Shown piece by piece: positions 178 to 14,210 of a stretch of DNA of 37,045 nucleotides. The notes beneath the pieces were generated by a model, which saw only the letters and a program-made list of their open reading frames with translations, did not search any database and was not told the DNA's origin. The stretch spans positions 1 to 37,045 of the forward strand of contig JAVHLL010000028.1 in NCBI GenBank assembly GCA_031082155.1, read 5' to 3'. Every line of letters starts with the position of its first letter. The first letter of the stretch is position 1. The stretch is from Thermodesulfovibrionales bacterium. GTDB lineage: Bacteria > Nitrospirota > Thermodesulfovibrionia > Thermodesulfovibrionales > SM23-35. The position numbers and the translations under genes were made by a program.

Positions 178-843
178 TTACGGCTCTTCAGTAATATCTG
201 TATGCCTGATCATCTTGCCCTTGCACATATAGATGATCATCTCGGCGATATTGGTTGCATGGTCTGCGATCCGTTCGAGATATTTCGCTATGTAGGTTCT
301 TTTAATAGCCAAGGGGATGATCTTAGGGTCCTGGATCATGAGAGCCAGAAGTTCCTCGAAATTTCTCACAGTGAGTTCGTCGACCTCGTCGTCTTTTTTT
401 ATGACCTCATAAGGTAAACGTGAACACCCGGCAACAAAGGCATCAAGAGCGTCTTTTACCATAGACTGAGCAGCTTCAGCCATCAGAGGTATATTTACAA
501 ATGCCTTCAATTGAGGCTCTTCGTTTAATTCAAGGGCTCTCTCTGCAATGTTGACCGCAAGATCTCCCATCCTCTCGAGGTCAGTGGTTATCTTCATGGC
601 GGTGGTGATGAGCCTCAGGTCCCGTGCCATAGGCTGCCTGAGGGCGATCAGCCGTACACATTCCTCGTCGATGCTTACGTCGAGTGCGTTGACGAGATGA
701 TCATTTTTGATGACCTCTTTCGCCAATTCACTGTCTCTTTCAACCAATGCTTTGACAGAATTCCGGATAGCGGTCTCCACCATCAATCCGAGTTTTAAAA
801 CCCTTTCCTTTAACGCTATTAATTCGTTATCAAAGATTGCCAT
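178..843 (-). CDS. phoU: PhoU phosphate-signalling regulator
   Basis: A 221-residue protein of normal PhoU length with two PhoU helical-bundle repeats (roughly residues 10-100 and 115-205). Each carries the acidic metal-binding signature of the family, seen as DLERMGDLAVNIAE near residue 90 and YLERIADHATNIAE near residue 190. PhoU links the PstSCAB transporter to the PhoR kinase and keeps the Pho regulon off when phosphate is plentiful. Its ATG shares one base with the pstB stop codon (TAATG), so it is translationally coupled as the last gene of pstSCAB-phoU. A second, DUF47-type PhoU-like protein is encoded next to pit; this one is the Pst/PhoR partner by context. Bases 1-177 downstream hold no gene I can support. 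Confidence 0.97.
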   Translation of the reverse strand: MAIFDNELIALKERVLKLGLMVETAIRNSVKALVERDSELAKEVIKNDHLVNALDVSIDEECVRLIALRQPMARDLRLITTAMKITTDLERMGDLAVNIAERALELNEEPQLKAFVNIPLMAEAAQSMVKDALDAFVAGCSRLPYEVIKKDDEVDELTVRNFEELLALMIQDPKIIPLAIKRTYIAKYLERIADHATNIAEMIIYMCKGKMIRHTDITEEP

Positions 844-1607
844 TATCCGAACCTTCCTGTGATATATTCTTCTGTAAGCTTGTTCCTGGGGTTGACAAAT
901 ATGGTGTCAGTATCCCCGAACTCAACGAGTTCTCCAAGATACATGAAGGCTGTATATTTCGATATCCGGGCTGCCTGCTGCATATTGTGAGTCACTATTA
1001 TTATCGTAACAGTTTTCTGGAGCTCCTGCAGCAGATTTTCGATGTTTGCGGTTGATATAGGGTCCAAAGCCGATGTCGGTTCGTCAAAGAGAAGCACTTC
1101 AGGTTCCTGCGCAAGTGACCGTGCGATACAGAGCCTCTGCATCTGCCCTCCGGACAGACTCATGCCTGATTCGTTGAGTTTATCCTTCACCTCTTTCCAT
1201 AAATCTGCCCTGACAAGGGCGTTTTCAACAATGCCGTCAAGCTGGCTTTTCTTTTTTATACCCCGGAGCTTTGGGCCGTATGCAACGTTCTCATATACAG
1301 AATTCGGAAAAGGGTTGGGTTTCTGAAAAACCATGCCCACTCTTTTGCGCAGTTCGATAACGTCAGCGTCCCTTTGATAAATGTTTACCCCACGGAACAA
1401 TGTTTCGCCTTCTACCCATGAAGAGACGATCAGGTCGTTCATCCTGTTCAGTGCCCTGAGCAGGGTCGATTTGCCGCAGCCCGAGGGCCCTATGATAGCG
1501 GTTATTTTACTGGCTTCAATATCCACTGTTACATTCCTGACAGCGGCGAAGTCTCCGTAATGGATGCTGAAATTTCTTATCTCGAATATTGCATTGCTCT
1601 CTACCAT
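843..1607 (-). CDS. pstB: Phosphate ABC transporter ATP-binding protein PstB
   Basis: A 254-residue ATPase that powers high-affinity phosphate import at the inner membrane. Walker A is GPSGCGKST at residues 40-48, followed by an ABC signature (LSGGQMQRL) and Walker B ([11 protein letters not shown]). The frame stays open upstream to 1946, but that extension lies inside pstA and has no family similarity. The start at 1607 ([13 protein letters not shown]) gives the usual length and has AGAGGA upstream, so I use it. It overlaps the pstA end by 7 nt, typical of coupled pst genes. Nothing is missing from the catalytic motifs. Confidence 0.97.
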
Positions 1608-2503
1608 GTTCTCTTTTTCCTCTGTCTTGAACGTAAAATAATTCCCAGGAAGTTCATTCCGAGTACCAGCATAATTAATATCAAAGCGGTTCCGTATTGT
1701 ATCGGTCTTGTCTCTTCTATGTGAGTGCCTGCGGTTGCGAGCACGTAAATATGGTAGGGCAGAGCCATAATTGGTTCCAGTAATGACCGCGGCACCCCCG
1801 GAGTGAAGAAAGCAGCAGCGGTAAACATAATAGGGGCGGTTTCCCCGGCTACCTTGGCTGTTCCGAGGATTGCCCCTGTCAGGATTCCCGGCATGGCAGT
1901 AGGCAGGATAACCTTTCTGATCGTCTGCCATTTTGTGGCGCCGCATGCCAGCGAAGCCTCTTTAAAACTGTAGGGAACAGACTTAAGAGACTCCTCCGAC
2001 GTAGAAATAATATAGGGAAGTACCATAATAGCAAGGGTCAGAGAGCCCGCCAGAAGACTCATGCCGAAGTTGAAGGCTACGACAAAGACTGCAAGACCGA
2101 AGAGACCGAAGACAACCGATGGAACCCCTGCGAGGGTATAAATAGACATCATCACAATTTTCAGGAGCAAGCCGGGTTTTGAATATTCCGAAAGAAAAAT
2201 TGCTGTTGTCACACCGACAGGTATCACTACAACCATGCAGAAAAGTGTCAGCAGGACGGTGCCGATAATGACCGGAAAAATTCCTCCCTTTGTCATCGCA
2301 TCGACAGGCGGCTGGGTAATGAATTCCCAGCTTAGAATATTAATTCCTTGATATGCCACAAAAAAAAGAATAATAAACAGAATCAGGGCTCCCATGAATC
2401 CCATTACCCGGATAAGAGAAAGGAAGAAACCCTGTTTCAGGTCAAATTTGTGCTTTTTCAATAACTCTGTATTCTTTTGGTTTGCAGTATTTTCTGCCAT
2501 CAA
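1601..2503 (-). CDS. pstA: Phosphate ABC transporter permease PstA
   Basis: A 300-residue inner-membrane permease with about six hydrophobic segments and a basic, soluble N-terminus of about 25 residues. The binding-protein-dependent transport EAA loop is visible as [20 protein letters not shown] before the last membrane spans. It forms the heteromeric channel with PstC. It overlaps pstC by 4 nt and pstB by 7 nt, so the three are one translational unit. The ending [10 protein letters not shown] is a short basic cytoplasmic tail. Confidence 0.96.
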
Positions 2504-3492
2504 ATTTTTTCCCCTATTCGCACGGACCTGTACTTTTTGGAAATAAAATCAGAGATTAAACTCAGGATGAAAGTCATGAGAAACAAAATAGCTCCCACAC
2601 CGAATAAGGCGTGATAGTGCAAACTCCGGTAGGGCGCTTCGGCCATTTCAGCAGCGATAGCGGACGGCATGGGTCTTGCCGGATCAAATATCCATTCAGG
2701 AATAACAGCAGCACCTCCTGCCACCATGAGAACAATCATGGTCTCTCCGATAATCGTTCCGATGCCGAGAATAACGGCGACACTCAATCCGGACACTGAT
2801 GCAGGGACAACCACTCTCCAGATTGTTTCCCATTTATTTGCTCCGAGAGAATAGGACGCTTCACGATAGGTGCGCGGAACTGCGGTCAGGGCATCCTCTG
2901 CAATACTCGAAATGACCGGTATCGCCCTTACTGTAAGCATCAATGCTGCGGTGGATATGTTCAGCCCTGATGCGATAAACAGTTTGTCATAACAGAAATC
3001 TGCAAGCGTCGTTGAGAGATATGGCAGGTTTGTGCTTCTCAGTATTTCAGGAAGCTTTTCGGAAAGGATGGGAGAGAGCCAATTGGAGAGAATGGGTGCA
3101 ATGATGACCATTCCGAAAAATCCAAGCACGACCGAGGGGAAACTCGCAAGCATTTCAATAAGCGGTTTCAGGAACTCTTTGACTTTGTGATTGGCGACCT
3201 CTGCGATATAGATTGCAGTCGCCAGGCCTAAGGGTATTGCCATGACAGCGGTGAGCACTGTTACCGCGAGGGTGCCGATAACGAGCGGCAACATGCCGAA
3301 GCTCGCCGGATCATAGGTCGGATACCACGCTTTCCCGAAAAGAACGGTGAGGACACCTTCTCGGTAAAAGATGTAAAATGCTTCTTTAAAGAGAAAAATA
3401 GCGATAAGAAGCAATAGGATGACCGATGTCAGCCCCACCGCGCTTACAATTATTTCAACCGTCTTTTCTTTTTTCTGCCAGTATAATTTCAT
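2500..3492 (-). CDS. pstC: Phosphate ABC transporter permease PstC
   Basis: A 330-residue permease with about six membrane segments and the EAA-type loop (REASYSLGANKWETIWRVVV). It pairs with PstA. It is about 30 residues longer than PstA because of a periplasmic stretch around residues 140-175 that contains a Cys (ADFCYDKL). The gap to pstS upstream is 73 bp and contains a strong hairpin, whereas the downstream junctions overlap. AAGAGG upstream of the ATG serves as a ribosome-binding site. Confidence 0.96.
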   Translation of the reverse strand: MKLYWQKKEKTVEIIVSAVGLTSVILLLLIAIFLFKEAFYIFYREGVLTVLFGKAWYPTYDPASFGMLPLVIGTLAVTVLTAVMAIPLGLATAIYIAEVANHKVKEFLKPLIEMLASFPSVVLGFFGMVIIAPILSNWLSPILSEKLPEILRSTNLPYLSTTLADFCYDKLFIASGLNISTAALMLTVRAIPVISSIAEDALTAVPRTYREASYSLGANKWETIWRVVVPASVSGLSVAVILGIGTIIGETMIVLMVAGGAAVIPEWIFDPARPMPSAIAAEMAEAPYRSLHYHALFGVGAILFLMTFILSLISDFISKKYRSVRIGEKI

Positions 3493-3508
3493 TCGTTCCT
3501 CTTCTTAA

Positions 3509-3542
3509 ACAGGGGAAGGAACCATCCGGTTCCTTCCCCTGT
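3509..3542 (-). promoter_or_regulatory. Perfect 15-bp hairpin between pstS and pstC
   Basis: Two perfectly complementary 15-nt arms (3509-3523 and 3528-3542) enclose a 4-nt loop. Read on the pst strand, the right arm is followed only by TTTAAG, so this is not a full intrinsic terminator. Intercistronic hairpins behind the first gene of binding-protein operons are known to protect the upstream mRNA or to attenuate transcription, which would give more PstS than PstCAB. That role is inferred here; the hairpin itself is plain in the sequence. Confidence 0.8.
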
Positions 3543-3565
3543 GTGAATCGATTCCTTCCGATTTT

Positions 3566-4381
3566 TTAATGAATGCTTACGTATTTCACTTCATTAACGA
3601 CCTTCTGGCCTTCTTTTGAAAGCATGAAGTCAATGAATTTTGCAATGGTACCCGCGGGCTTTCCCTTTGTATACATGAGCAATGGTCTTGCAATCGGCCA
3701 TGAACCATCACGCACACTCGCGGCTGTTGCAGTTTTGCCCCCGACTTTCAAGGCCTTCACGGATTTGTCCGTGTAACCGATTCCGATATACCCGATGGCA
3801 AATTTATTCTGTGCAACCGTCTGCACAGCCTGACCGTTGGATGCAACCAAAAGTGCATCAGCTCTCACCCTGTCACCCTTTAATACTTTTTCTTCCCATA
3901 CTTCATAAGTGCCCGAGCTTGTGTCCCTTGAAACTACGGAGACAGGCCGATTCGGTCCGCCGAGTTCCTTCCAGCTTTTAATCTTTCCGTTATAAACGTC
4001 CCTGAGCTGTTCCATGGTGATGTCGGTGAGTTTCATGGAAGGGTGGACAACCGGTATAATGCCGTCAAGCGCAACCTTATGTCCGGTCAAGGTGATCCCC
4101 TTTGCTTTTCCTGAAGCCACTTCCTTGTCTTTTGCTTCCCTCGAACTCGTTGCTATATGGGTTGTGCCGTCGATAAGTGCTTTGATACCGGTTCCCGAAC
4201 CGCTGCCTGATACAAAAATCTTTGTATCGGCATGCTTTTTCATATAGACCTCTGCGGCTTTTTGAGCTACAGGCAGCACTGTGGTGGAACCATCAATTTT
4301 CAGGTCCTCTCCAAAAGAGAGCCCTGCAAGAGAGAATACTATCAAGCCTGCGAATACAGCCGTTAAAAATCTTTTCATCAT
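3566..4381 (-). CDS. pstS: Periplasmic phosphate-binding protein PstS
   Basis: A 271-residue substrate-binding protein of the PstS family. An N-terminal signal peptide (KRF followed by a hydrophobic stretch, likely cleaved near LSFG-EDLK at about residue 24) sends it to the periplasm. The mature protein opens with KIDGSTTVLPVAQ, which carries the phosphate-contacting Ser/Thr motif, and later shows SGSGSGTGIKAL and SRDTSSGTYEVW, both typical PstS phosphate-binding loops. There is no lipobox Cys. AGGAGG at 4388-4393 is a strong ribosome-binding site. Transcription should start from the four-unit Pho box just upstream. Confidence 0.97.
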   Translation of the reverse strand: MMKRFLTAVFAGLIVFSLAGLSFGEDLKIDGSTTVLPVAQKAAEVYMKKHADTKIFVSGSGSGTGIKALIDGTTHIATSSREAKDKEVASGKAKGITLTGHKVALDGIIPVVHPSMKLTDITMEQLRDVYNGKIKSWKELGGPNRPVSVVSRDTSSGTYEVWEEKVLKGDRVRADALLVASNGQAVQTVAQNKFAIGYIGIGYTDKSVKALKVGGKTATAASVRDGSWPIARPLLMYTKGKPAGTIAKFIDFMLSKEGQKVVNEVKYVSIH

Positions 4382-4403: not shown

Positions 4404-4458
4404 ACCTTACTACGAGATTGTTACAGGTTTGTTACAGTTGTGTTAAATTTCTGTTACA
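4404..4458 (-). promoter_or_regulatory. PhoB-type promoter of pstS: four Pho-box units plus -10
   Basis: On the plus strand the units TGTTACA (4419-4425), TGTTACA (4430-4436), TGTTAAA (4441-4447) and TGTTACA (4452-4458) repeat at exactly 11 bp. This is the 7+4 geometry of tandem PhoB-binding half sites. Read toward pstS, 9 bp separate the last unit from the hexamer TAAGGT (4404-4409), which keeps the key -12T, -11A and -7T. There is no separate -35, as expected when PhoB replaces it. The box overlaps the 3' end of the small Cys-rich gene. The same layout recurs at 7257-7311 and 9975-10029. Confidence 0.88.
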
Positions 4459-4658
4459 TAGCTCACCCCCCTGAGCACTTTGGATAAAAATATCGGACAA
4501 TTGTCATAGTTATCAGTGCTGCAACAGGCTGCCCTTCTATTGCCGTCAATTATCATCGATGAAAGAGAAGCCATGCATACTGTTTTGCCATTATACGGGC
4601 AACCGGTATCAAAGGCCATAATCCTGCTGTTCTCTGCTTTTGTTCTTATCATTTCCAT
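4443..4658 (-). CDS. Small five-cysteine protein, function unknown
   Basis: A 71-residue protein with Cys20, Cys28, Cys45, Cys46 and Cys54 in a C-x7-C ... CC-x7-C pattern (CPYNGKTVC, then CCSTDNYDNC). The spacing suggests a small metal- or cluster-binding module, and I recall similar short Cys-motif proteins from Deltaproteobacteria and relatives, although I cannot name the family. The frame is open up to 4751, but AAGGAG at 4666-4671 fits the ATG at 4658. It has no signal peptide and is probably cytoplasmic. Its stop codon lies within the pstS Pho box, so it sits directly upstream of the pst operon on the same strand but is likely a separate transcript. Confidence 0.62.
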   Translation of the reverse strand: MEMIRTKAENSRIMAFDTGCPYNGKTVCMASLSSMIIDGNRRAACCSTDNYDNCPIFLSKVLRGVSYVTEI

Positions 4659-4894
4659 TTCTTTTCTCCTTTCTTTCTCAAAGGTTAACAGGGGAATGTT
4701 ACAGGATGATGAAAGAGAGGTTAAGATTCTGACATGAAATGTAATTTGCATACGTTTATTACCGTCAAAATTCCTTATAGTTACCTACTAATTCTTTCGG
4801 TCGTTGCGTTGTTCCTTTTGAAATCAAGGGGTTGTGAAATGAAACACAATGGCACAAAATATGCTTACTTATGGGAAAGAACGGTAAAAGATAA

Positions 4895-5295: not shown

Positions 5296-6546
5296 TCAGG
5301 CGAACCGGGCCTTGATGGCATCGGTAAGCCTGTATGTCCATGACCATCCGGTTTCTTTACAGGGCAAGAGAAAAGAGTCTTTCCCGATGATATATCTGTT
5401 CCCTCTCCATACTACAGTATTGGACAGTATCGGCACAAACCAGATAATGCCAATAATCATATCCTTAACCGGAGAGAGAAAATAGAGCAAAGAACGCATT
5501 GGCGCCCTGATAATCCTTCCGATATAGAGATCACCCATGATCTTTATGCAGCTTGATGCGACCAATAGAGACGCGGTTATTTTTGAAGGTCCCCAAAGGA
5601 ACATCGGAATTGATGACAAGAAGACAGGGTTCCCGATCAATTCAGAAAAGTATCGAAAACCGCCTATTCTCCATCTCAGTTTACCCCAACGTATGTGCCT
5701 GTTCAGGAATTTCCGTATCCCCCAGTAATGATTCACATTCCGGACCATATAGTGTGAAAGTACAACCTTTTTCCCTGTTTCCTTAATCTTTTTCCCTATA
5801 AGATAGTCTTCTGCAAGGACATCCTTCACCGCAGGAAATCCCCCGACAGCTTCAAGATCTCTTTTCCTCATGAGCATTGATTTTCCCACCACACAGGGCA
5901 TCTTCAGAAACCGGTCAAGGAAACAGACGCTTCCCATTATGAACGAATTCAGGTGGAGGTTCTCAAATACTGAACCGAGCGTGCGGCCCCCTGTGCCCTG
6001 TATGAGATTACTCACCAGTCCGACACCCGGGTCCTGCAGATGCTTCACGATCTCCTGCAGGTAATTTCTGCCGACCAGAACATTGCTGTCACTGATAAGT
6101 ATTGCCTCGTATTTTGAGACGTTATAGGACGGCACAAGATTGTTTATCTTTGGGTTGAGCCCTGCATTGCATCGTTCCACGATAATGGTGATATCTTTTT
6201 CAGGATATTTCTCCTTTATCTTTTTTGCGACCTTATAGGCAGGATCATTATAATCCTGGAGCCCAAAAATAATTTCATACATGGGATAGTCCTGCATACA
6301 AATGCTCGCAAGATTATCGAAGAGATTGTCATCAATTCCCTTGAGAGGCTTGAGAATAGAAATACCGGGGAAAGGTACAGGCAGAGAAAAAGAAGCAGGA
6401 GATGCTCCTTGTGATAAACCTCTTTCTCTTTCTTCTTCTCCTGTTCTTCGTTCCTGCAATTTTTTCCTGATTGCCCAGATCTGCAATCCGTATGCTGCAA
6501 GTCCCGCTATGGTGATAAGAACAAAAATAATAAATACTGTTTCCAT
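5296..6546 (-). CDS. GT21-like membrane glycosyltransferase (ceramide glucosyltransferase/HpnI type)
   Basis: A 416-residue protein: an N-terminal membrane helix (residues 3-25), a GT-A domain, and C-terminal hydrophobic segments (about 305-375). The catalytic signature of family GT21 is in order: SILKPLKGIDDNL (63-75), SDSN with Asp153, AEDYLIG with Asp247, and R-x-x-R-W at 283-287 (RHIRW). Relatives transfer sugar from a nucleotide donor to a lipid (ceramide, diacylglycerol or hopanoid). The acceptor here is not decided by sequence. Its ribosome-binding site (AAAGGAG) is 10 nt downstream of the PHP stop codon, so the two genes are co-transcribed from the Pho-box promoter. That context favours glycolipid synthesis under phosphate limitation. 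Confidence 0.88.
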   Translation of the reverse strand: METVFIIFVLITIAGLAAYGLQIWAIRKKLQERRTGEEERERGLSQGASPASFSLPVPFPGISILKPLKGIDDNLFDNLASICMQDYPMYEIIFGLQDYNDPAYKVAKKIKEKYPEKDITIIVERCNAGLNPKINNLVPSYNVSKYEAILISDSNVLVGRNYLQEIVKHLQDPGVGLVSNLIQGTGGRTLGSVFENLHLNSFIMGSVCFLDRFLKMPCVVGKSMLMRKRDLEAVGGFPAVKDVLAEDYLIGKKIKETGKKVVLSHYMVRNVNHYWGIRKFLNRHIRWGKLRWRIGGFRYFSELIGNPVFLSSIPMFLWGPSKITASLLVASSCIKIMGDLYIGRIIRAPMRSLLYFLSPVKDMIIGIIWFVPILSNTVVWRGNRYIIGKDSFLLPCKETGWSWTYRLTDAIKARFA

Positions 6547-6556
6547 ATCTTCTCCT

Positions 6557-7249
6557 TTAATTCCTGAATAAGGTTATCGCTACTCCTTTGTTGTGCCGGA
6601 TGCATTGTTTTACGGACTCGACCTTCTTCTCGCAGTTTAGAAGCGTCTTCCATGAATAGAGGTGCCGTGTCCTGTGAAAGTCGCTGTTCGCGATATAGGG
6701 ATATTTCTTCAGGCTTATAACATTAAAAACGTCGTCCCGGTTTGCAATTTCCCAGGCGTCGATATATTTGGCGTACTTGTCCCTGTTGTTCCATAGGAAG
6801 AGGGTCTCTCTGATCGTCATTTCTGAAGTATGGTGCGGATGGCAGGCGATTACGAGGGCATCCTGTCCCTTTGCTTCACGGAATATTTTTTCATAACTCC
6901 AGCAGGCGGGGATGAATTCCTTTATGTCGAGAATGAGGATATGGGCCGACTTGTCTGATGAGATATAGTTCTTGCTTATCTCAACCCCGGGAATGATCAG
7001 CATCCCGTATTTGTCATACGCCCGTTCCGCTTCCTGCCTGACATGGGCCATATAGTCATCAAAATTGTTTTCATTCACGGTGAATCTGAAGCGGTGGGCA
7101 AGCTTGCCGAAGGAACTGTCGCCGTTTACCACATGGTCGGTGATGGCGATAACATCAAACCCGGCCTGACCGAAGAGATCGACCGCCCTTCTCAGTTCTA
7201 CCGAGCCATCAGAGTATTTCGTGTGAATGTGGAAATCACACAGTAACAT
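6557..7249 (-). CDS. PHP-domain metal-dependent phosphoesterase
   Basis: A 230-residue stand-alone PHP domain with all canonical metal ligands: H7-x-H9, D14, ITDH with H39, PGVE with E90, HPHH with H137, and SDFH with D190 and H192. It has no polymerase or other fused domain and no signal peptide, so it is cytoplasmic or peripherally membrane-bound. PHP proteins hydrolyse phosphoesters of varied substrates; the substrate is not readable from sequence. Residue 7 is already a ligand, so the ATG at 7249 must be the true start. It lacks a Shine-Dalgarno, and the -10 hexamer is 7 nt away, implying a leaderless mRNA. It heads the operon with the GT21-like gene. Confidence 0.9.
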   Translation of the reverse strand: MLLCDFHIHTKYSDGSVELRRAVDLFGQAGFDVIAITDHVVNGDSSFGKLAHRFRFTVNENNFDDYMAHVRQEAERAYDKYGMLIIPGVEISKNYISSDKSAHILILDIKEFIPACWSYEKIFREAKGQDALVIACHPHHTSEMTIRETLFLWNNRDKYAKYIDAWEIANRDDVFNVISLKKYPYIANSDFHRTRHLYSWKTLLNCEKKVESVKQCIRHNKGVAITLFRN

Positions 7250-7256
7250 TAATATG

Positions 7257-7311
7257 ATAATAAGTTTTTTAAATTACAGGAGTATTACGGTAAGATGAAG
7301 TTTTGATTACA
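7257..7311 (-). promoter_or_regulatory. PhoB-type promoter of the PHP-glycosyltransferase operon
   Basis: Plus-strand units AATTACA (7272-7278), TATTACG (7283-7289), GATGAAG (7294-7300) and GATTACA (7305-7311) sit at exact 11-bp steps. The third plus-strand unit is the most degenerate, as it is at the other two Pho promoters. Nine bp downstream is TATTAT (7257-7262), a 5/6 match to the -10 consensus, followed by 7 nt and the ATG. Spacing is identical to the pstS and porin promoters. The box overlaps the last codons of the GH1 gene. Confidence 0.8.
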
Positions 7312-8554
7312 AATTCCTGCTTTTCATCAGGTAGGAGTAATAGAAAGCGGCTTTTGTGGGCTTTCGCTCGAGGGTTGTAAAATCAACCGTGTACAGGCCG
7401 AAGCGTGAATCAAGTCCCTGGAGCCATTCATAGTTGTCGATGAGAGACCAGTAGAAGTATCCCCTCACATCCATTCCCTTGCGTACGCATCGTTCGAGGA
7501 TATCGATGTGGCTTTTCATGAACCGTATCTTCTTCCTGCTGCTGTGTGTTGCAATGCCATTTTCGGTGATGATTAAAGGGACATCCAGTTTCGATGCATA
7601 TCTCAGTACCTTTTCAAGGCCGCGTGGATGTATTTCCCATCCCATATCGGTTAAGCCATAACCGTCAATATCTCTGTGGCGGAGTTCCACCCCCATTTTT
7701 TTGAACGGATTGAATCTCATATGCACCCTTGTGTAATAGTTCACTCCGAGAAAATCGAGCTTATCTTTTATGGGAACAGGGATTTCGAGTGATTTCCTGA
7801 AGGGGAATTTCACGTATACCTTCCCGGTGAGAAATGCATCGAGGAGCGAATGGTTATAGAAGTACTTTGCAATTTTTGCAAGGAGCCTGTCCATAGGGTT
7901 CCATCTCCTCCAGGGAGCAAGCGCTGCCATATTATGAGCAACGCTTACCATTGCATCAGGGATGCTGGAATGGATCATATCGTATGCCTGTCCATGGCAT
8001 ACGAGGATATTGCGGAGAGCATCAAGCGCCAGCACAGCATCGCGTTTACCCGGTGGCATGCACCCCTCAAGGTATCCGCCAAGCAGGAGTACGTAGGGTT
8101 CATTAAACGTTATCCAGTACTTCACCCCCCGGATTGTTGAGAGGACCTTGTCCACATAATCCAGGAATTTTCTGATCGATGGATATTCATGCCAGGGGTA
8201 TTTTTTGATGAACCACAACGGATGGGTGAAATGGTGGAGGGTGACCATGGGTTCAATATTATTCTCGATGAGAATATCGATGATCTCCTGATAATGTGCC
8301 AGCGCTTCATAATCCCATACATTCTCTCTTGGCTGGATCCGGCTCCATTCGAATGAAAATCTGTATGCATTTACACCGAGTTCCTTCAGAAGTTTGAGGT
8401 CTTCTTTATAAAGCGTGTAATGGCTGGTAACATCAGGATTATCGGAGAGGACCGAATCCCAGGTGGTCCAGTCTGCATAGGGAGAACCTTCGAGCTGAAA
8501 AGCTGAAGTGGCTACCCCCCAGAGGAAACGGTCACTTGCTATTTCTGTCTTCAT
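7307..8554 (-). CDS. Family GH1 beta-glycosidase
   Basis: A 415-residue glycosidase starting FLWGVATSAFQLEG, the typical GH1 opening. The acid/base Glu152 is in TFNEPYV and the nucleophile Glu331 in LIITENG, so the retaining mechanism is intact. Length is slightly under the usual 440-480, mostly from shorter loops. It has no signal peptide, so it acts on cytoplasmic glycosides or glycolipid head groups. Specificity (glucoside or galactoside) cannot be read. The ribosome-binding site is poor (AAGG abutting the ATG), and a strong terminator separates it from the porin, so its promoter is unclear. It sits between the porin and the PHP-GT operon, inside the phosphate island. Confidence 0.92.
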   Translation of the reverse strand: MKTEIASDRFLWGVATSAFQLEGSPYADWTTWDSVLSDNPDVTSHYTLYKEDLKLLKELGVNAYRFSFEWSRIQPRENVWDYEALAHYQEIIDILIENNIEPMVTLHHFTHPLWFIKKYPWHEYPSIRKFLDYVDKVLSTIRGVKYWITFNEPYVLLLGGYLEGCMPPGKRDAVLALDALRNILVCHGQAYDMIHSSIPDAMVSVAHNMAALAPWRRWNPMDRLLAKIAKYFYNHSLLDAFLTGKVYVKFPFRKSLEIPVPIKDKLDFLGVNYYTRVHMRFNPFKKMGVELRHRDIDGYGLTDMGWEIHPRGLEKVLRYASKLDVPLIITENGIATHSSRKKIRFMKSHIDILERCVRKGMDVRGYFYWSLIDNYEWLQGLDSRFGLYTVDFTTLERKPTKAAFYYSYLMKSRNL

Positions 8555-8651: not shown

Positions 8652-9848
8652 TTAAAATTTGAAGGCGTAGGTAAGGTCTATCTGGATCCTGTTCTCCTCC
8701 ATCGACCGCTTATCAGCAGGCAGTTGCGTGCTTACGGCCTTGGTGGCGTAGTATTTCAGCGCATGCGCCCATCCTTTGCCGAGTCCGAACCGGTATCCGA
8801 ATGTCCAGCCTTTGTTGTTTGTTCCTCCGCTCCGGAAATCTGAATCCGAGAATTCATCGTATGTTGCATCGCTTTCCACCCTGCTGTAGGTGGTAAATAC
8901 CTGCCAATCCTTGAACTGCTCCACTTTTTTGTTCCCGGCCGTAATGCCGAAAAGATACCCGTCATTGTTCTCATCGGCGGCAGCGTTATATACATAGTCG
9001 GCGGTAAGGCCCACATAGAGCGGCAGGTACAATGACACATTAGCAGTTGCATTGTAGACTCTGAAGTCGCTGATTGTGTTCCCGTGGTATTTGTTGTCAT
9101 CTGCCGAAATGAGGTCGACATTCGAGTAATTATAGTGGGCAAGCCCCACTACCACATCAAATTTGTCTTTCTCGCCGTATTTCAAACCGCCCTGGATACC
9201 CAGAAGCCAGGGATCGGAAGAATCACCGCTCAGTTCATCGAGAGGGAATGCTCCCGCATTGATGAACACCGTGGGTTTCCCGACTTCATGACTGGCCTGG
9301 ATTGCCACTCCCTCAGGGTGAAGGTCGGGGTCAAATACTATCCATGTGTAAGGGGTAAAAGGGTTCTTGAATTTCCCCAGATATACGTCCAGCTTCTTGT
9401 CGAAGAATTTATGTCGTACATAGGCGGACTCAAGCCAGACATTTTTCAGCTCAAAGATGTCTCCTAGGGATTGATTCAGGGTGACCTGATCCTGTTTTTC
9501 TCCGGTGCCGAGTCTGAACCCTACCTGTGTCAGTTCATTGATATCATAGGTAAATCCGAAGCGTCCCTGTATTCTCTCTCTGTGCCTGTCCGCTTTATCC
9601 GGTTTATCGAACCATTGTGAGTCATGTCGCATCCTGAAACTGCCTTCCCACTTTGCTTTTTTTGCCTCGGCTTTTTTCGCTTCGGCCTTCATCTCGTCTG
9701 TTATCGAGATTGCCTCCTGATTTGTAAGTACTCCTTTTTCGACCAGCTTCTTAAGAATCGGGTCCTTAATATCCTCTGCTGCCATTGCCGCCCCAGCTGC
9801 GGAGAGCAGGATACAGAGGCTTACCACGAACGCTGCGAATTTCTTCAT
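8652..9848 (-). CDS. Outer-membrane porin, probably phosphate-starvation induced
   Basis: A 398-residue protein with a signal peptide (KKFAAFVVSLCILLSAAGAAMA, cleaved before AEDIKD). A short helical segment follows (KKLVEKGVLTNQEA plus a Lys/Ala-rich KAEAKKAEAKKAK stretch), as often seen before the barrel in periplasm-anchored porins. The rest is alternating beta-strand sequence with many aromatic residues ending in LTYAFKF, where the terminal Phe is the usual barrel-insertion signal. The family is best described as putative porin (OprP/OprO-like or Porin_5); substrate is not shown. AAGGAGGAG precedes the ATG. A four-unit Pho box at 9990-10029 points to control by PhoB and a role in phosphate uptake. 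Confidence 0.85.
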   Translation of the reverse strand: MKKFAAFVVSLCILLSAAGAAMAAEDIKDPILKKLVEKGVLTNQEAISITDEMKAEAKKAEAKKAKWEGSFRMRHDSQWFDKPDKADRHRERIQGRFGFTYDINELTQVGFRLGTGEKQDQVTLNQSLGDIFELKNVWLESAYVRHKFFDKKLDVYLGKFKNPFTPYTWIVFDPDLHPEGVAIQASHEVGKPTVFINAGAFPLDELSGDSSDPWLLGIQGGLKYGEKDKFDVVVGLAHYNYSNVDLISADDNKYHGNTISDFRVYNATANVSLYLPLYVGLTADYVYNAAADENNDGYLFGITAGNKKVEQFKDWQVFTTYSRVESDATYDEFSDSDFRSGGTNNKGWTFGYRFGLGKGWAHALKYYATKAVSTQLPADKRSMEENRIQIDLTYAFKF

Positions 9849-9900
9849 ACATTCTCCTCCTTTTGTATTGAGATTTCCTTACAGTGAAATCCTTCTGTGA

Positions 9901-9962
9901 TCGTCATGCCGGTTTGTCGGGCATCTTTCTCCGGGAATGATACAAGACAAGCAGGAATGACA
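9901..9962. repeat. Inverted-repeat element in the porin 5' leader
   Basis: About 62 bp with imperfect inverted ends: CGTCATGCCGGTTTGTC at the left and ACAAGCAGGAATGACA at the right. It belongs to the same family as 35053-35126 and a fragment at 36975-36991 (CATTCCGGCTTGC). It lies between the porin's Pho promoter (-10 at 9975-9980) and its ribosome-binding site, so the porin mRNA should carry it as a hairpin in a leader of about 120 nt. Confidence 0.75.
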
Positions 9963-9974
9963 TATGCTGGGAAT

Positions 9975-10029
9975 ACTTTACCCGTGGAATGTTACAGGAA
10001 TATTACGGAGAGGTTAAGTTTTTGTTACG
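9975..10029 (-). promoter_or_regulatory. PhoB-type promoter of the porin gene
   Basis: Plus-strand units TGTTACA (9990-9996), TATTACG (10001-10007), GGTTAAG (10012-10018) and TGTTACG (10023-10029) repeat at 11 bp. Nine bp downstream is TAAAGT (9975-9980). Geometry is the same as at pstS and the PHP gene. The box overlaps the phoR stop region by 5 bp. Confidence 0.85.
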
Positions 10030-11800
10030 TCAGGGGACTGATGAGGCGCACTTTAGTGCCGGAGCCCTCGACACTCTCGATCTTCATATCCCAGCTGTGG
10101 GCAATGACAAGATGTTTGACGATAGCCAGTCCCAGTCCTGTGCCGCCGAGTTCCCGCGACCGTGCCCTGTCAACACGGTAGAACCGCTCACCGAGCCGGG
10201 CAAGATGTTTTCTGGGAATACCAATCCCTGTATCCTCAACAGAAATATTGATGATATTTTGTTGTTCAGGTTCTTTTCCTTCACTTTCAACTTTCAATTT
10301 TTCACCCTTTACTTTAATTGCTACCCCGCCTTTCTCGGTGAACTTAATTCCATTGTCTGTGAGGTTTAGGAGGATCTGTATCAGACGGTCCCTGTCGGCT
10401 CTAATTTCCCTGCAATCCGGAGCAATTTGTTTGCTCAGAGTGAGTCCCCTGTCCCGTGCTTTTTCTTTCAGGGTTGCAAAGACAGCGTCGATAAGCTCAT
10501 CGAGATTCACTAATGTCTTTTTAAGTTTGATGTCGCCAAGCTCGATTCGGGAAAGGGTGAGCAGATCACTGACAAGAGAATTGAGGCGCTCGCTGTGGTT
10601 TTTTATCGTTTCGAGAAATTTCCGGGCATTCTCCCTGTCATCAAGCGCTCCATCGAGAAGTGTCTCAGCAAACCCCTTGATTGCGGTTATCGGTGTTTTG
10701 ATCTCATGAGAGACATTGGCAACAAAGTCTTTCCGCACTTCCTCCAGTTTCCGCAGCCGGGTTATATCATGAAAGGTAAAAACTACGCCGGACAGTTCTC
10801 CTTTGATACTGAACGGGGCTGCTGTTGTCATCAGATAGCGTTCCTTCGTCCCATGTATCTCGATCTCACGGGATATCTTTTCCCTGCCTTGTGATACATG
10901 TTCGACGACTTCCATGAGGTCAGCTCTTCTGAGACCTTCCGTCAGGGTTTTTCCTTCGATGCTTGACTGAATACCGAACAGGTCTCTGATGGCGGTGTTG
11001 CTCAGAACAATTCTCCCATTTGTGTCGGTCAGCACGAGTCCGTCAGACATATTCCGGAGAATTGCCTCTATTTTCTGTCTTTCCTCCACACTCTCTGTGA
11101 GCCGTTCGTGCAGTTCCTCTGCCATAGCACTGATATTTCTGCCAAGCTCTCCCAGTTCACCCTTCTCTTTGGTGAAGAGTCTCTTCCTGAAATTTCCCGC
11201 GGCAATATCTTTCGAATAGTCAGTAATGTCCTCAATTGATCTGGTGATTTTTCTTGTCTGATAAAGACTTATTATAATAGCGATGCATAATACAATGAGA
11301 GAAGAGAAAATTATCCTCATCCGGATAGCATTCAGTGCTTTCTCGATATCCTGAAGGGGTAAGGATAATCGCAGGAATATTTTCTCTGTATCTCCAACTG
11401 CCAGGGCAAGATAGAATAAATTTTTTCTCAACGTACTGCTGTATCTTATGGAAGTGCCGACATCATTGATATCTGCATCCCTTATTTCCGGCCTGTCCGC
11501 ATGATTTCCCATACTCTCTGATGGTTCATCGGAATCCCCCAGGACCTTCCCCGAACTCTCTATGACAGTTACCCGCGCTCCTGTCTTTTCCTTGTATCGC
11601 CTGCAGAAATCGTCGAGATCAGCGCGGGAAGCGGGAATCTGTCCGGCAATCAACCGCGCCTGCTTAAGGAGACTGTCCTGGAGATTGGCTATGAAGTTGT
11701 CTTTGACTGCGCCGGAGATATAAAGTTCAAGGATGATAAGGAGAAGAGATCCTATAATTACATAGGGAATGGCAATCCTTTTGAACAGGAACCGTTTCAT
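10025..11800 (-). CDS. phoR: Phosphate-sensing histidine kinase PhoR
   Basis: A 591-residue kinase: TM1 (12-28), an extracytoplasmic region (about 30-160), TM2 (162-180), HAMP (181-235), PAS (240-345), HisKA with His365 in ANVSHEIKTP, and HATPase with N479/N483, DTGIGIP (523-529) and GGTGLGLAI (552-560). The large periplasmic region resembles the longer PhoR/WalK-type sensors rather than short E. coli PhoR. It overlaps phoB by 4 nt. Residues about 497-507 (KGEKLKVESEG) do not belong to the fold's usual beta hairpin and coincide with a dispersed repeat. It phosphorylates PhoB when PstSCAB-PhoU signals phosphate shortage. Confidence 0.93.
   Translation of the reverse strand: MKRFLFKRIAIPYVIIGSLLLIILELYISGAVKDNFIANLQDSLLKQARLIAGQIPASRADLDDFCRRYKEKTGARVTVIESSGKVLGDSDEPSESMGNHADRPEIRDADINDVGTSIRYSSTLRKNLFYLALAVGDTEKIFLRLSLPLQDIEKALNAIRMRIIFSSLIVLCIAIIISLYQTRKITRSIEDITDYSKDIAAGNFRKRLFTKEKGELGELGRNISAMAEELHERLTESVEERQKIEAILRNMSDGLVLTDTNGRIVLSNTAIRDLFGIQSSIEGKTLTEGLRRADLMEVVEHVSQGREKISREIEIHGTKERYLMTTAAPFSIKGELSGVVFTFHDITRLRKLEEVRKDFVANVSHEIKTPITAIKGFAETLLDGALDDRENARKFLETIKNHSERLNSLVSDLLTLSRIELGDIKLKKTLVNLDELIDAVFATLKEKARDRGLTLSKQIAPDCREIRADRDRLIQILLNLTDNGIKFTEKGGVAIKVKGEKLKVESEGKEPEQQNIINISVEDTGIGIPRKHLARLGERFYRVDRARSRELGGTGLGLAIVKHLVIAHSWDMKIESVEGSGTKVRLISPLT
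10279..10311. repeat. Dispersed GTGAAA/TTGAAA-type repeat inside phoR
   Basis: On the minus strand this reads as short reiterations of GTGAAA, TTGAAAG and TTGAAAGTG. It encodes the extra residues at about 497-507 of PhoR in the ATPase domain. Similar sequence occurs between the tRNA-Gly gene and trpE (26840-26935) and inside waaA (33810-33845). Confidence 0.6.
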
Positions 11801-12498
11801 GCCTTTTCATCGAATACATACCCGATGCCACGCATTGTTTTTATATAGCGGGGATTTGCCGGATTTCGTTCAATCTGGGCCCGCAACCGCCGTATATGGA
11901 CATCTACAGTCCGTGGTTCTACAAAGGCCTCATCTCTCCATATTGCATCAAGAAGCTGGTTGCGGCTGAATACCCTGCCTCTTCTCTCTGCAAGAAAGAG
12001 AAGGAGTTTGAATTCTGTTGCGCTCAGCTTGACCGGGGTTCCTCTTACTGAAGCAATGTATCGCTCCCGGTCTATCTCAAGCTCCCCAATCTTAAGGATC
12101 TTCTCCGTGACAGGTTTCTCCGACGCCCTTCTCAGAACGGCTTTTACACGGGCTACAAGTTCACGGGGGCTGAACGGTTTTGCCATGTAGTCATCTGCGC
12201 CCATCTCCAGTCCGAGTATCCTGTCTATTTCCTCGCCCTTAGCAGTCAGCATGATTATGGGAAGCCCGGCCGTTTTCGGATCATTCCGTACGATGCGGCA
12301 GAGTTCCAGGCCCTGAATTCCGGGCAGCATGAGATCGAGTATGAGAAGGTCATAGTTCTCTTTTCTGATCTTGCCGAGGGCGGCATCCCCGTCAAAGGAT
12401 GAATCTACGGCAAAGCCCTCTTTTTTCAGGTTATATGCAATAAGTTCGACAAGATCAGCCTCGTCTTCAATGACGAGTATATGCTTTAAAGGTGCCAC
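11797..12498 (-). CDS. phoB: Phosphate response regulator PhoB
   Basis: A 233-residue OmpR-family regulator: receiver domain with phospho-acceptor Asp55, acidic pair E11-D12, and Lys87 in MLTAKG, then a winged-helix DNA-binding domain (about 130-230) with the RTVDVHIRRLR recognition helix. It starts at GTG 12498 (APLKHILVIEDE). No Shine-Dalgarno is present, and a -10 hexamer ends 6 nt before the GTG, so the mRNA is probably leaderless. Partner of PhoR, with which it overlaps by 4 nt. It is the likely binder of the three 11-bp-phased boxes in the window. Confidence 0.95.
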   Translation of the reverse strand: MAPLKHILVIEDEADLVELIAYNLKKEGFAVDSSFDGDAALGKIRKENYDLLILDLMLPGIQGLELCRIVRNDPKTAGLPIIMLTAKGEEIDRILGLEMGADDYMAKPFSPRELVARVKAVLRRASEKPVTEKILKIGELEIDRERYIASVRGTPVKLSATEFKLLLFLAERRGRVFSRNQLLDAIWRDEAFVEPRTVDVHIRRLRAQIERNPANPRYIKTMRGIGYVFDEKA

Positions 12499-12604: not shown

Positions 12605-13222
12605 ATGAAACTTTTCCCAAAAGAGACTGATTTTTTTTCGATTTTTGAAAAGGCTGCGGCCAATGTCACCCATGCAGCCACGCTCTTCGTCGGAATCATG
12701 GAACATTTCACCAACCTTGAGCTCTGGGCAAAGGAAGTGCATGAACTTGAGCAGGAAGGCGATGTATATACCCATGATATTATCAGGAAGCTTAACAAGA
12801 CCTTTATTACGCCGATTGACAGAGAAGATATCCATGCGCTCGCATCGAGATTAGACGACATCCTTGACCTGCTCTGGAATGCAGCCGACAGGCTTACCGT
12901 GTTCAAACTCACTGAGGCTACCCCATACGCGATCATTATGGCAAAGGATCTCCTTGCAACCGTTGAACTGGTAGAAAAAGCGATAAAGAAACTGAAAGAC
13001 AAGAACTATGCCCATATCCAGGAATACTGCATCGAGATCAACAAACTCGAAAATAAAGTGGACAGGGGGTTTAAGGATGCCCTCTGTCACCTGTTTGATC
13101 AAATCAAAGACCCCATTCTTATTATTAAATGGAAAGAAATCTACGAGCATCTTGAGGACGCGTCTGACAGGTGCGAGGATGTAGCGAATATCCTGGAAGC
13201 CATAGTCCTCAAAAATGCCTGA
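12605..13222 (+). CDS. DUF47/PhoU-like Pit accessory protein
   Basis: A 205-residue all-helical protein of the DUF47 (PhoU_div) family, recognised by FPKETDFFSIFEKAA at the start, the central TPIDREDIHALASRLDDILD motif and the tail EDASDRCEDVANILEAI. Such proteins are encoded directly before Pit transporters and are thought to regulate them. It overlaps pit by 8 nt. It is distinct from the two-repeat PhoU at 178-843. Confidence 0.92.
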   Translation: MKLFPKETDFFSIFEKAAANVTHAATLFVGIMEHFTNLELWAKEVHELEQEGDVYTHDIIRKLNKTFITPIDREDIHALASRLDDILDLLWNAADRLTVFKLTEATPYAIIMAKDLLATVELVEKAIKKLKDKNYAHIQEYCIEINKLENKVDRGFKDALCHLFDQIKDPILIIKWKEIYEHLEDASDRCEDVANILEAIVLKNA

Positions 13223-14210
13223 ATCGTATTCTCTCCTCCTTATTGTTATATTCCTTGCACTAATATTTGATTTCATAAACGGTTTCCACGATTCTGCGAA
13301 TGCTATTGCTACTTCGGTTTCAACGAGGGTCTTGTCTCCCAAAGCAGCGGTATTGATGGCTGCTGCTTTGAATATGATCGGAGCATTCTCCGGCACCGCT
13401 GTGGCTAAAACGGTGGGCGTCGGCCTTGTACAGACCGCCAGCATAACTCAGATAACGGTTATCTCTGCGCTGTTGGCTGCTATCGTTTGGGATCTTATTA
13501 CCTGGTATTTCGGTCTTCCTACGTCATCAAGCCATGCTATTCTTTCCGGTATTGTTGGCGCTGCAGTAGCTACATCGGGTACGGGAATCGTCATCGCGAA
13601 AGGGGTAGAGAAAGTTTTTCTGGGTTTGGTCCTTTCTCCTTTAATAGGGTTCGTGCTCAGTCTATTCCTTATGTTTTTCCTCACTTGGATGTTTAAGAGA
13701 TCTACCCCGACATCGGTCACTAAAATCTTTAGCAGACTCCAGATCATGTCTGCCGCATATATGGCATTCAGCCACGGAAGCAATGATGCCCAGAAAACGA
13801 TGGGAATCATTACTATGGCCCTCGTGAGCTACTACAACCTGAGTGATTTCCATGTGCCGGCATGGGTTATTGTGACGTGTGCAATCGCGATGGCGTTTGG
13901 CACTGCCGGCGGCGGCTGGAGAATTATCAAGACCCTGGGGGTCAGGCTTGCACACCTCAGGCCCATTCACGGATTCGCCGCAGAAAGTGCAGCGGCGACC
14001 GTTATCGAGGTTGCATCAAGGATAGGCCTTCCGCTCTCAACAACCCATGTGATTTCCTCGACAATAATGGGGGTAGGTGCATCAAAAAGGCTCTCCGCAG
14101 TCAGATGGGGAATCGGGGGGAATATCGTGATTGCATGGATATTGACGATTCCCGCGTGTGTGATACTCGCATGGGGTATATGTAAATTACTGCATTTTGT
14201 TCTTGGGTGA
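13215..14210 (+). CDS. pit: Low-affinity inorganic phosphate transporter, PiT family
   Basis: A 331-residue multi-span membrane protein with both PiT signature repeats: GFHDSANAIATSVSTRVLSP near the N-terminus and FSHGSNDAQKTMGIITMAL in the middle, each carrying the conserved ND/DSA substrate motif. PiT carriers co-transport metal phosphate with H+ or Na+. Length is on the short side, typical for bacterial PiT paired with a DUF47 protein. It gives the cell a low-affinity route beside the Pho-regulated Pst system. It converges on aroB with only 14 bp between stops and no clear terminator. Confidence 0.95.
   Translation: MPESYSLLLIVIFLALIFDFINGFHDSANAIATSVSTRVLSPKAAVLMAAALNMIGAFSGTAVAKTVGVGLVQTASITQITVISALLAAIVWDLITWYFGLPTSSSHAILSGIVGAAVATSGTGIVIAKGVEKVFLGLVLSPLIGFVLSLFLMFFLTWMFKRSTPTSVTKIFSRLQIMSAAYMAFSHGSNDAQKTMGIITMALVSYYNLSDFHVPAWVIVTCAIAMAFGTAGGGWRIIKTLGVRLAHLRPIHGFAAESAAATVIEVASRIGLPLSTTHVISSTIMGVGASKRLSAVRWGIGGNIVIAWILTIPACVILAWGICKLLHFVLG

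Follow-up and report, generated by a model that had tools for sequence, protein, structure and literature searches.

A Pho-boxed pair of PHP-phosphoesterase and GT21-glycosyltransferase genes in Thermodesulfovibrionales: a candidate operon for phosphorus-free glycolipid synthesis

We propose that a gene for a PHP-fold phosphoesterase and a gene for a GT21 glycosyltransferase, found side by side in a thermodesulfovibrional genome, form a PhoB-controlled operon that would make a phosphorus-free glycolipid under phosphate scarcity, with ceramide as the likeliest acceptor; on balance, we lean towards this reading of the sequences. The window, that is, the whole stretch of DNA analysed (37,045 nt), corresponds to contig C31 of a genome of 2.65 Mb, which has its relatives among the Thermodesulfovibrionales (Nitrospirota). 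On its minus strand the order of the genes is phoB, phoR, porin, GH1, PHP, GT21 and pstSCAB-phoU (Table 1). In the scenario that we propose, PhoB would occupy the box ahead of PHP and switch on both genes. The GT21 enzyme, presumably an inner-membrane protein whose catalytic domain lies on the cytoplasmic side, would take a hexose from a UDP-sugar and attach it to a neutral lipid, most likely a ceramide supplied by an unboxed dehydrogenase-SPT-N-acyltransferase operon elsewhere in the genome, and the resulting glucosylceramide-type lipid would take the place of a phospholipid. The PHP enzyme would most likely remove a phosphate or a phospho-headgroup, thereby freeing the acceptor and/or recovering phosphate, which is the weakest step, and the neighbouring GH1 enzyme would probably trim or turn over the glycolipid at the membrane. 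We infer the glycosylation of a lipid and the choice of ceramide, and the parts that we assign to PHP and GH1 are the least secure.

Table 1. Features of the window, with their positions and the evidence for each.
Feature	Position	Strand	Evidence
Pho box of the PHP-GT operon, CCGTAATACTCCTGTAAT	7273..7290	-	Consensus scan and conservation in relatives
PHP-fold metal-dependent phosphoesterase, TM0559 subfamily, 230 aa, intact	6557..7249	-	Pfam PHP, E 3.7e-8
GT21 membrane glycosyltransferase, 416 aa	5296..6546	-	Glyco_transf_21, E 9.2e-47
GH1 beta-glycosidase	7307..8554	-	Pfam GH1, E 5e-84
Porin (Porin_5), Pho-boxed	8652..9848	-	Pfam; Pho box CCGTAATATTCCTGTAAC upstream
phoR and phoB, two-component regulator	10025..12498	-	TIGR02154 PhoB and PnpS/PhoR models
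pstSCAB-phoU with its own Pho box	178..4381	-	TIGR00972, TIGR02135; ORFs; pstS box

The regulatory part of the proposal was addressed by scanning the entire window on both strands with a Pho-box consensus (about 74,000 positions, maximum score 14). The Pho box that had been predicted ahead of the pair proved real: it scores 13.0/14 and is surpassed only by the box of pstS (13.2/14), while the third place (12.6) is shared by the porin box and two other sites. It begins 41 nt upstream of the PHP ATG, within the 57 nt that separate GH1 from PHP, and weaker half-sites with an 11-nt spacing extend upstream of it as far as position 7312. Because the box is placed between GH1 and PHP, the Pho-controlled unit is PHP-GT. 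The two genes are separated by 10 nt (6547-6556), as the original prediction had it, and a ribosome site, AAGGAGA, precedes GT. PHP-GT therefore has its Pho box at promoter distance, as members of the Pho regulon do, and we infer that PhoB induces the pair. The window's own PhoB scores 272 bits against TIGR02154, the PhoB and PnpS/PhoR matches both being slightly below the cut-offs of the models. A terminator-like hairpin, recognized by eye, precedes GH1. Pho control of GH1 was considered and rejected, since no Pho box of its own was found within 250-320 nt upstream, in the window and in most relatives. Since no ribosome site is visible upstream of PHP (7247-7290) and the ATG is only about 41 nt from where the box starts, the PHP transcript may be nearly leaderless.

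The box is conserved. We collected 79 PHP, 52 GH1 and 67 GT upstream regions from relatives, counts that are approximate because some genomes entered the set twice, by different routes. A score of at least 11.4 was reached by 66% of the PHP regions, 10% of the GH1 regions and 1.5% of the GT regions; 76%, 10% and 10%, respectively, beat 95% of their own shuffles, which preserved base composition only. Many of the sites ahead of PHP stand 41-46 nt from its start. A lack of Pho boxes in relatives, named beforehand as an outcome that would count against the original prediction, was thus not what we observed. In Desulfurella, a clear Pho box was not found upstream of PHP.

The pair itself is conserved too. 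PHP is present in 63 of the 396 sampled Nitrospirota genomes, its full-length copies sharing 71-85% identity, and GT lies within 1 kb at 62 of the 65 PHP copies, with a median gap of 9.5 nt. The three copies without an adjoining GT consist of two contig-split fragments and one second copy; the latter (L078:6001-6690, from UBA665) lacks GT and Pho box and has a Cas4-like gene nearby. Conversely, a single genome (G280) carries GT without PHP beside it. The arrangement recurs outside the phylum: Desulfurella acetivorans has GH1-PHP-GT-pstS, with phoA farther along, and in the tree its GT groups in the same clade as the PHP-paired enzymes of Nitrospirota. The search for conserved PHP-GT21 pairs, suggested earlier as a check, therefore came out in favour of the pair, and its near-obligate adjacency in Nitrospirota and Desulfurella suggests that PHP and GT share one task. 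When only loci of at least 8 kb were counted (n=45), 25 had at least one pst, phoBR or phoA gene no farther than about 6 kb from PHP-GT. We found no description of a PHP-GT pair in the literature searched, the coverage of which was partial, so that this is weak evidence of novelty. An alkaline phosphatase gene, phoA, lies near the pair in 11 loci (e.g. L067:7878-9428), mainly in Thermodesulfovibrio, and in most of them immediately behind GT. A calcineurin-like phosphoesterase (Metallophos_2), absent from the window, stands beside or near GT in 16 loci, L075:9452-10168 among them, and is possibly a further member of the system.

Readings diverge on what the PHP enzyme acts on. That it is a PHP-fold phosphoesterase with a complete metal site, as originally claimed, is borne out by the Pfam match and by the metal-motif residues H7, H9, D14, H39, E90, H137, D190 and H192, all invariant among 30 relatives, the most distant of which is 48% identical. 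The protein matches TM0559 (PDB 2anu), a member of the same subfamily, over its full length (E 7e-63). Both proteins were modelled by AlphaFold with high confidence (mean pLDDT 86 for PHP and 88 for GT), and the PHP model aligns with 2anu in Foldseek with E 2e-28 and 44% identity. In the fold search only TM0559 was close and other PHP enzymes were distant; no known lipid-acting relative was found among the fold matches. The PHP enzymes that have been characterised use nucleotides, histidinol phosphate or nucleic acids as substrates. These data are in line with a PHP protein that is a soluble phosphatase or phosphodiesterase of the nucleotide or sugar-phosphate type, recovering phosphate or clearing a by-product, so that only GT would be lipid-acting; this reading, which is compatible with either acceptor, is a serious possibility, though short of likely. 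It also agrees with the occurrence of PHP relatives without GT. Thermotoga maritima, one of our control genomes, carries TM0559 and gave no match to the HpnI/GT21 model (E 1e-40) or to SPT (E 1e-50), and a Freyarchaeota archaeon has a relative with 47% identity (L079:6001-6675) in a genome where neither GT nor SPT was found. The chemistry of PHP is therefore not bound to this GT. The near-obligate adjacency described above nevertheless points to a joint task and speaks against a soluble enzyme working apart from GT. We suggest more tentatively that PHP strips phosphate from a phosphosphingolipid or a phospholipid, that GT21 glucosylates the released lipid and that GH1 serves in turnover or transglycosylation, the whole being an independently evolved Pho-controlled system of sphingolipid remodelling; in this full form the scheme is doubtful.

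As foreseen from its D-D-D-RxxRW signature, the glycosyltransferase matches Glyco_transf_21, and D101, D153, D247 and the motif R283-H-x-R286-W287 are invariant in 25 relatives, in agreement with the D, D, D, (R/Q)xxRW pattern of GT21. Its nearest relative of solved structure is the ceramide glucosyltransferase 26qf (150 bits, E 7e-43, over the catalytic domain), which shares its family and motifs, but which is not known to have a partner gene for a PHP protein or to be under Pho control; an HpnI from the same phylum reaches only 99 bits against 26qf. The top NCBIfam model is HpnI (TIGR03472), which would make GT a hopanoid enzyme acting on bacteriohopanetetrol. Its score of 252 bits is however below the cut-off of 310, and in a tree of 54 GT21 proteins the PHP-paired enzymes form one clade (100/100) apart from HpnI, its position among the other GT21 proteins being unsure because of long branches. 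Moreover, a hopene cyclase was found neither in this complete genome nor in 22 of the 26 PHP-bearing relatives examined. The four relatives that do have a cyclase encode, besides the PHP-paired enzyme, another GT21 of the HpnI type, and in three genomes (G022, G035 and G054) an HpnI-type GT21 shares a contig with the cyclase, at most 8 kb away. We therefore rejected this assignment: hopanoid glycosylation, one of the acceptor options offered originally, is very improbable, and refuted for the host barring a non-homologous hopene cyclase. The Foldseek search with GT returned only enzymes of the GT2 fold, hyaluronan and cellulose synthases among them, as would fit a Pho-controlled synthesis of exopolysaccharide or of undecaprenyl-linked sugars. 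The synthases, at 12-16% identity, share only the common GT2-like fold, no polysaccharide genes adjoin the pair in the window, and the match in sequence is to ceramide glucosyltransferase, which leaves such a role improbable. The fold search did not list the ceramide glucosyltransferase entry, which probably reflects the April 2026 end date of the structure library. Altogether, GT is likely, from its sequence, to be a glycosyltransferase of ceramide or another lipid.

A source of ceramide can be proposed. The host genome encodes an SPT-type enzyme (580 bits against NF047600, for which the equivalog cut-off is 640 and the BioF paralogue reaches 287 bits), whose gene clusters with those of an NAD-dependent dehydrogenase and a GNAT N-acyltransferase (G000:C39), and the cluster is kept in relatives. 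The Caulobacter ceramide genes provide the same three activities (PMC11324152), and the cluster is likely to be a ceramide operon. Pho control of this operon was also considered and rejected, as no Pho box was found upstream of it; the lack of a box matches the pattern in Caulobacter, where phosphate starvation induces glycosyltransferases and not the first ceramide gene (PMC6445935). SPT occurs in 60 of the 63 pair-bearing Nitrospirota genomes as against 87 of the 333 others (Fisher p 2e-26), a co-occurrence confounded by ancestry since SPT is near-universal in the order, and SPT or the N-acyltransferase is found in 61 of the 63. Among the exceptions, one (G315) has no SPT and an N-acyltransferase at a contig end, and another (G133) has the pair without SPT in a genome that is 74% complete. 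The third, G262, is a real counter-example: in this pair-bearing, 99% complete genome neither SPT nor N-acyltransferase was found. Two Desulfurella-group genomes carry SPT and the acyltransferase.

Because GT is nearest to a ceramide glucosyltransferase and a ceramide pathway is present, ceramide is a likelier acceptor than diacylglycerol, and the likeliest product would be a glycosphingolipid, its main rival being glycosyl-diacylglycerol. To our knowledge, the acceptor of those GT21 relatives whose function is known is ceramide or bacteriohopanetetrol and not diacylglycerol. This background, the proximity to ceramide glucosyltransferase and the want of a lipid-acting relative among the PHP fold matches all weigh against a route in which PHP, as a PlcP-like enzyme or a phosphatidate phosphatase, would yield diacylglycerol or dialkylglycerol for GT21 to glycosylate. 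Such a route would parallel plcP-agt in its obligate pairing with a Pho-controlled hydrolase (PMC4796936), and it would account for G262, which carries the pair without ceramide genes; we consider it rather unlikely. In a published lipid survey of fluids whose phosphate was below detection, Thermodesulfovibrionia were associated with 1G sphingolipids and with 1G diether lipids, the latter glycosyl diether glycerolipids as the glycerol route would produce (PMC10667739); this link is a correlation only and is compatible with the ceramide and glycerol routes alike. Against the preferred ceramide explanation stand G262, the SPT score below 640, the PHP proteins of T. maritima and the archaeon that occur without GT, and Desulfurella with no clear box.

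GH1 is a conserved neighbour: in 38 of about 50 loci its gene stands no more than about 6 kb from PHP-GT. Its nearest solved relative is BGPh of Pyrococcus horikoshii (PDB 1vff, E 6e-88), an enzyme reported to be membrane-associated and to prefer long-alkyl glucosides (PMC4687101); BGPh resembles GH1 in sequence, but it is archaeal and a link to phosphate control is not known. It is plausible that GH1, usually without a Pho box, is a glycolipid enzyme.

How does the pair compare with known systems? PlcP-Agt of Sinorhizobium, Agrobacterium, SAR11 and Phaeobacter likewise couples a Pho-controlled hydrolase to a lipid glycosyltransferase. However, PlcP is calcineurin-like and yields diacylglycerol, whereas the hydrolase paired with GT21 in the window has a PHP fold by Pfam and Foldseek, a difference that the original prediction had rightly pointed out. 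Among the five PF00149 proteins that the host genome encodes, none stands out as a PlcP in a comparison of size and layout only. Caulobacter Sgt1 and Sgt2 (PMC6445935) glycosylate ceramide in a starvation-switched manner while the first ceramide gene stays uninduced, but they are GT4 enzymes, and a PHP or GH1 partner is not described. HpnI is a GT21 relative from which the window's enzyme differs in clade, in cut-off and in the missing hopanoid pathway of the host. PHP-GT would work like Pho-controlled glycolipid substitution and is a member of neither PlcP-Agt nor HpnI. The original idea of a lipid-remodelling pair stands as regards a conserved, Pho-boxed pair with a lipid-type glycosyltransferase; its acceptor is amended from diacylglycerol to, more likely, ceramide, an option that it had also listed. 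Most likely, judging from the genes, these deep-branching sulfur-cycle bacteria use PHP-GT to add sugar to a ceramide-type lipid with genes unrelated to the known ones. If so, PHP-GT would be another non-homologous toolkit for replacing phospholipids by glycolipids, and would give a role to the TM0559 subfamily, for which a structure, but no function, is known. It would also provide candidate genes for the glycosphingolipids and glycosyl diether lipids of phosphate-poor subsurface fluids, which are rich in these largely uncultured bacteria. If PHP does act on lipid, it would be the first enzyme of its family with a membrane-lipid substrate.

Other features of the locus were noted. No Pfam match was found for a 102-aa ORF between GT and pstS (4443-4751). 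The porin box, in the porin region 8652-10010, is near-identical to the PHP box, upstream half-sites included, and the protein is likely to be a phosphate-starvation porin. Finally, phoB is adjoined by a gene pair for DUF47 (PhoU_div) and a Pit phosphate transporter (12605-14210), which places the regulator between two systems of phosphate uptake.
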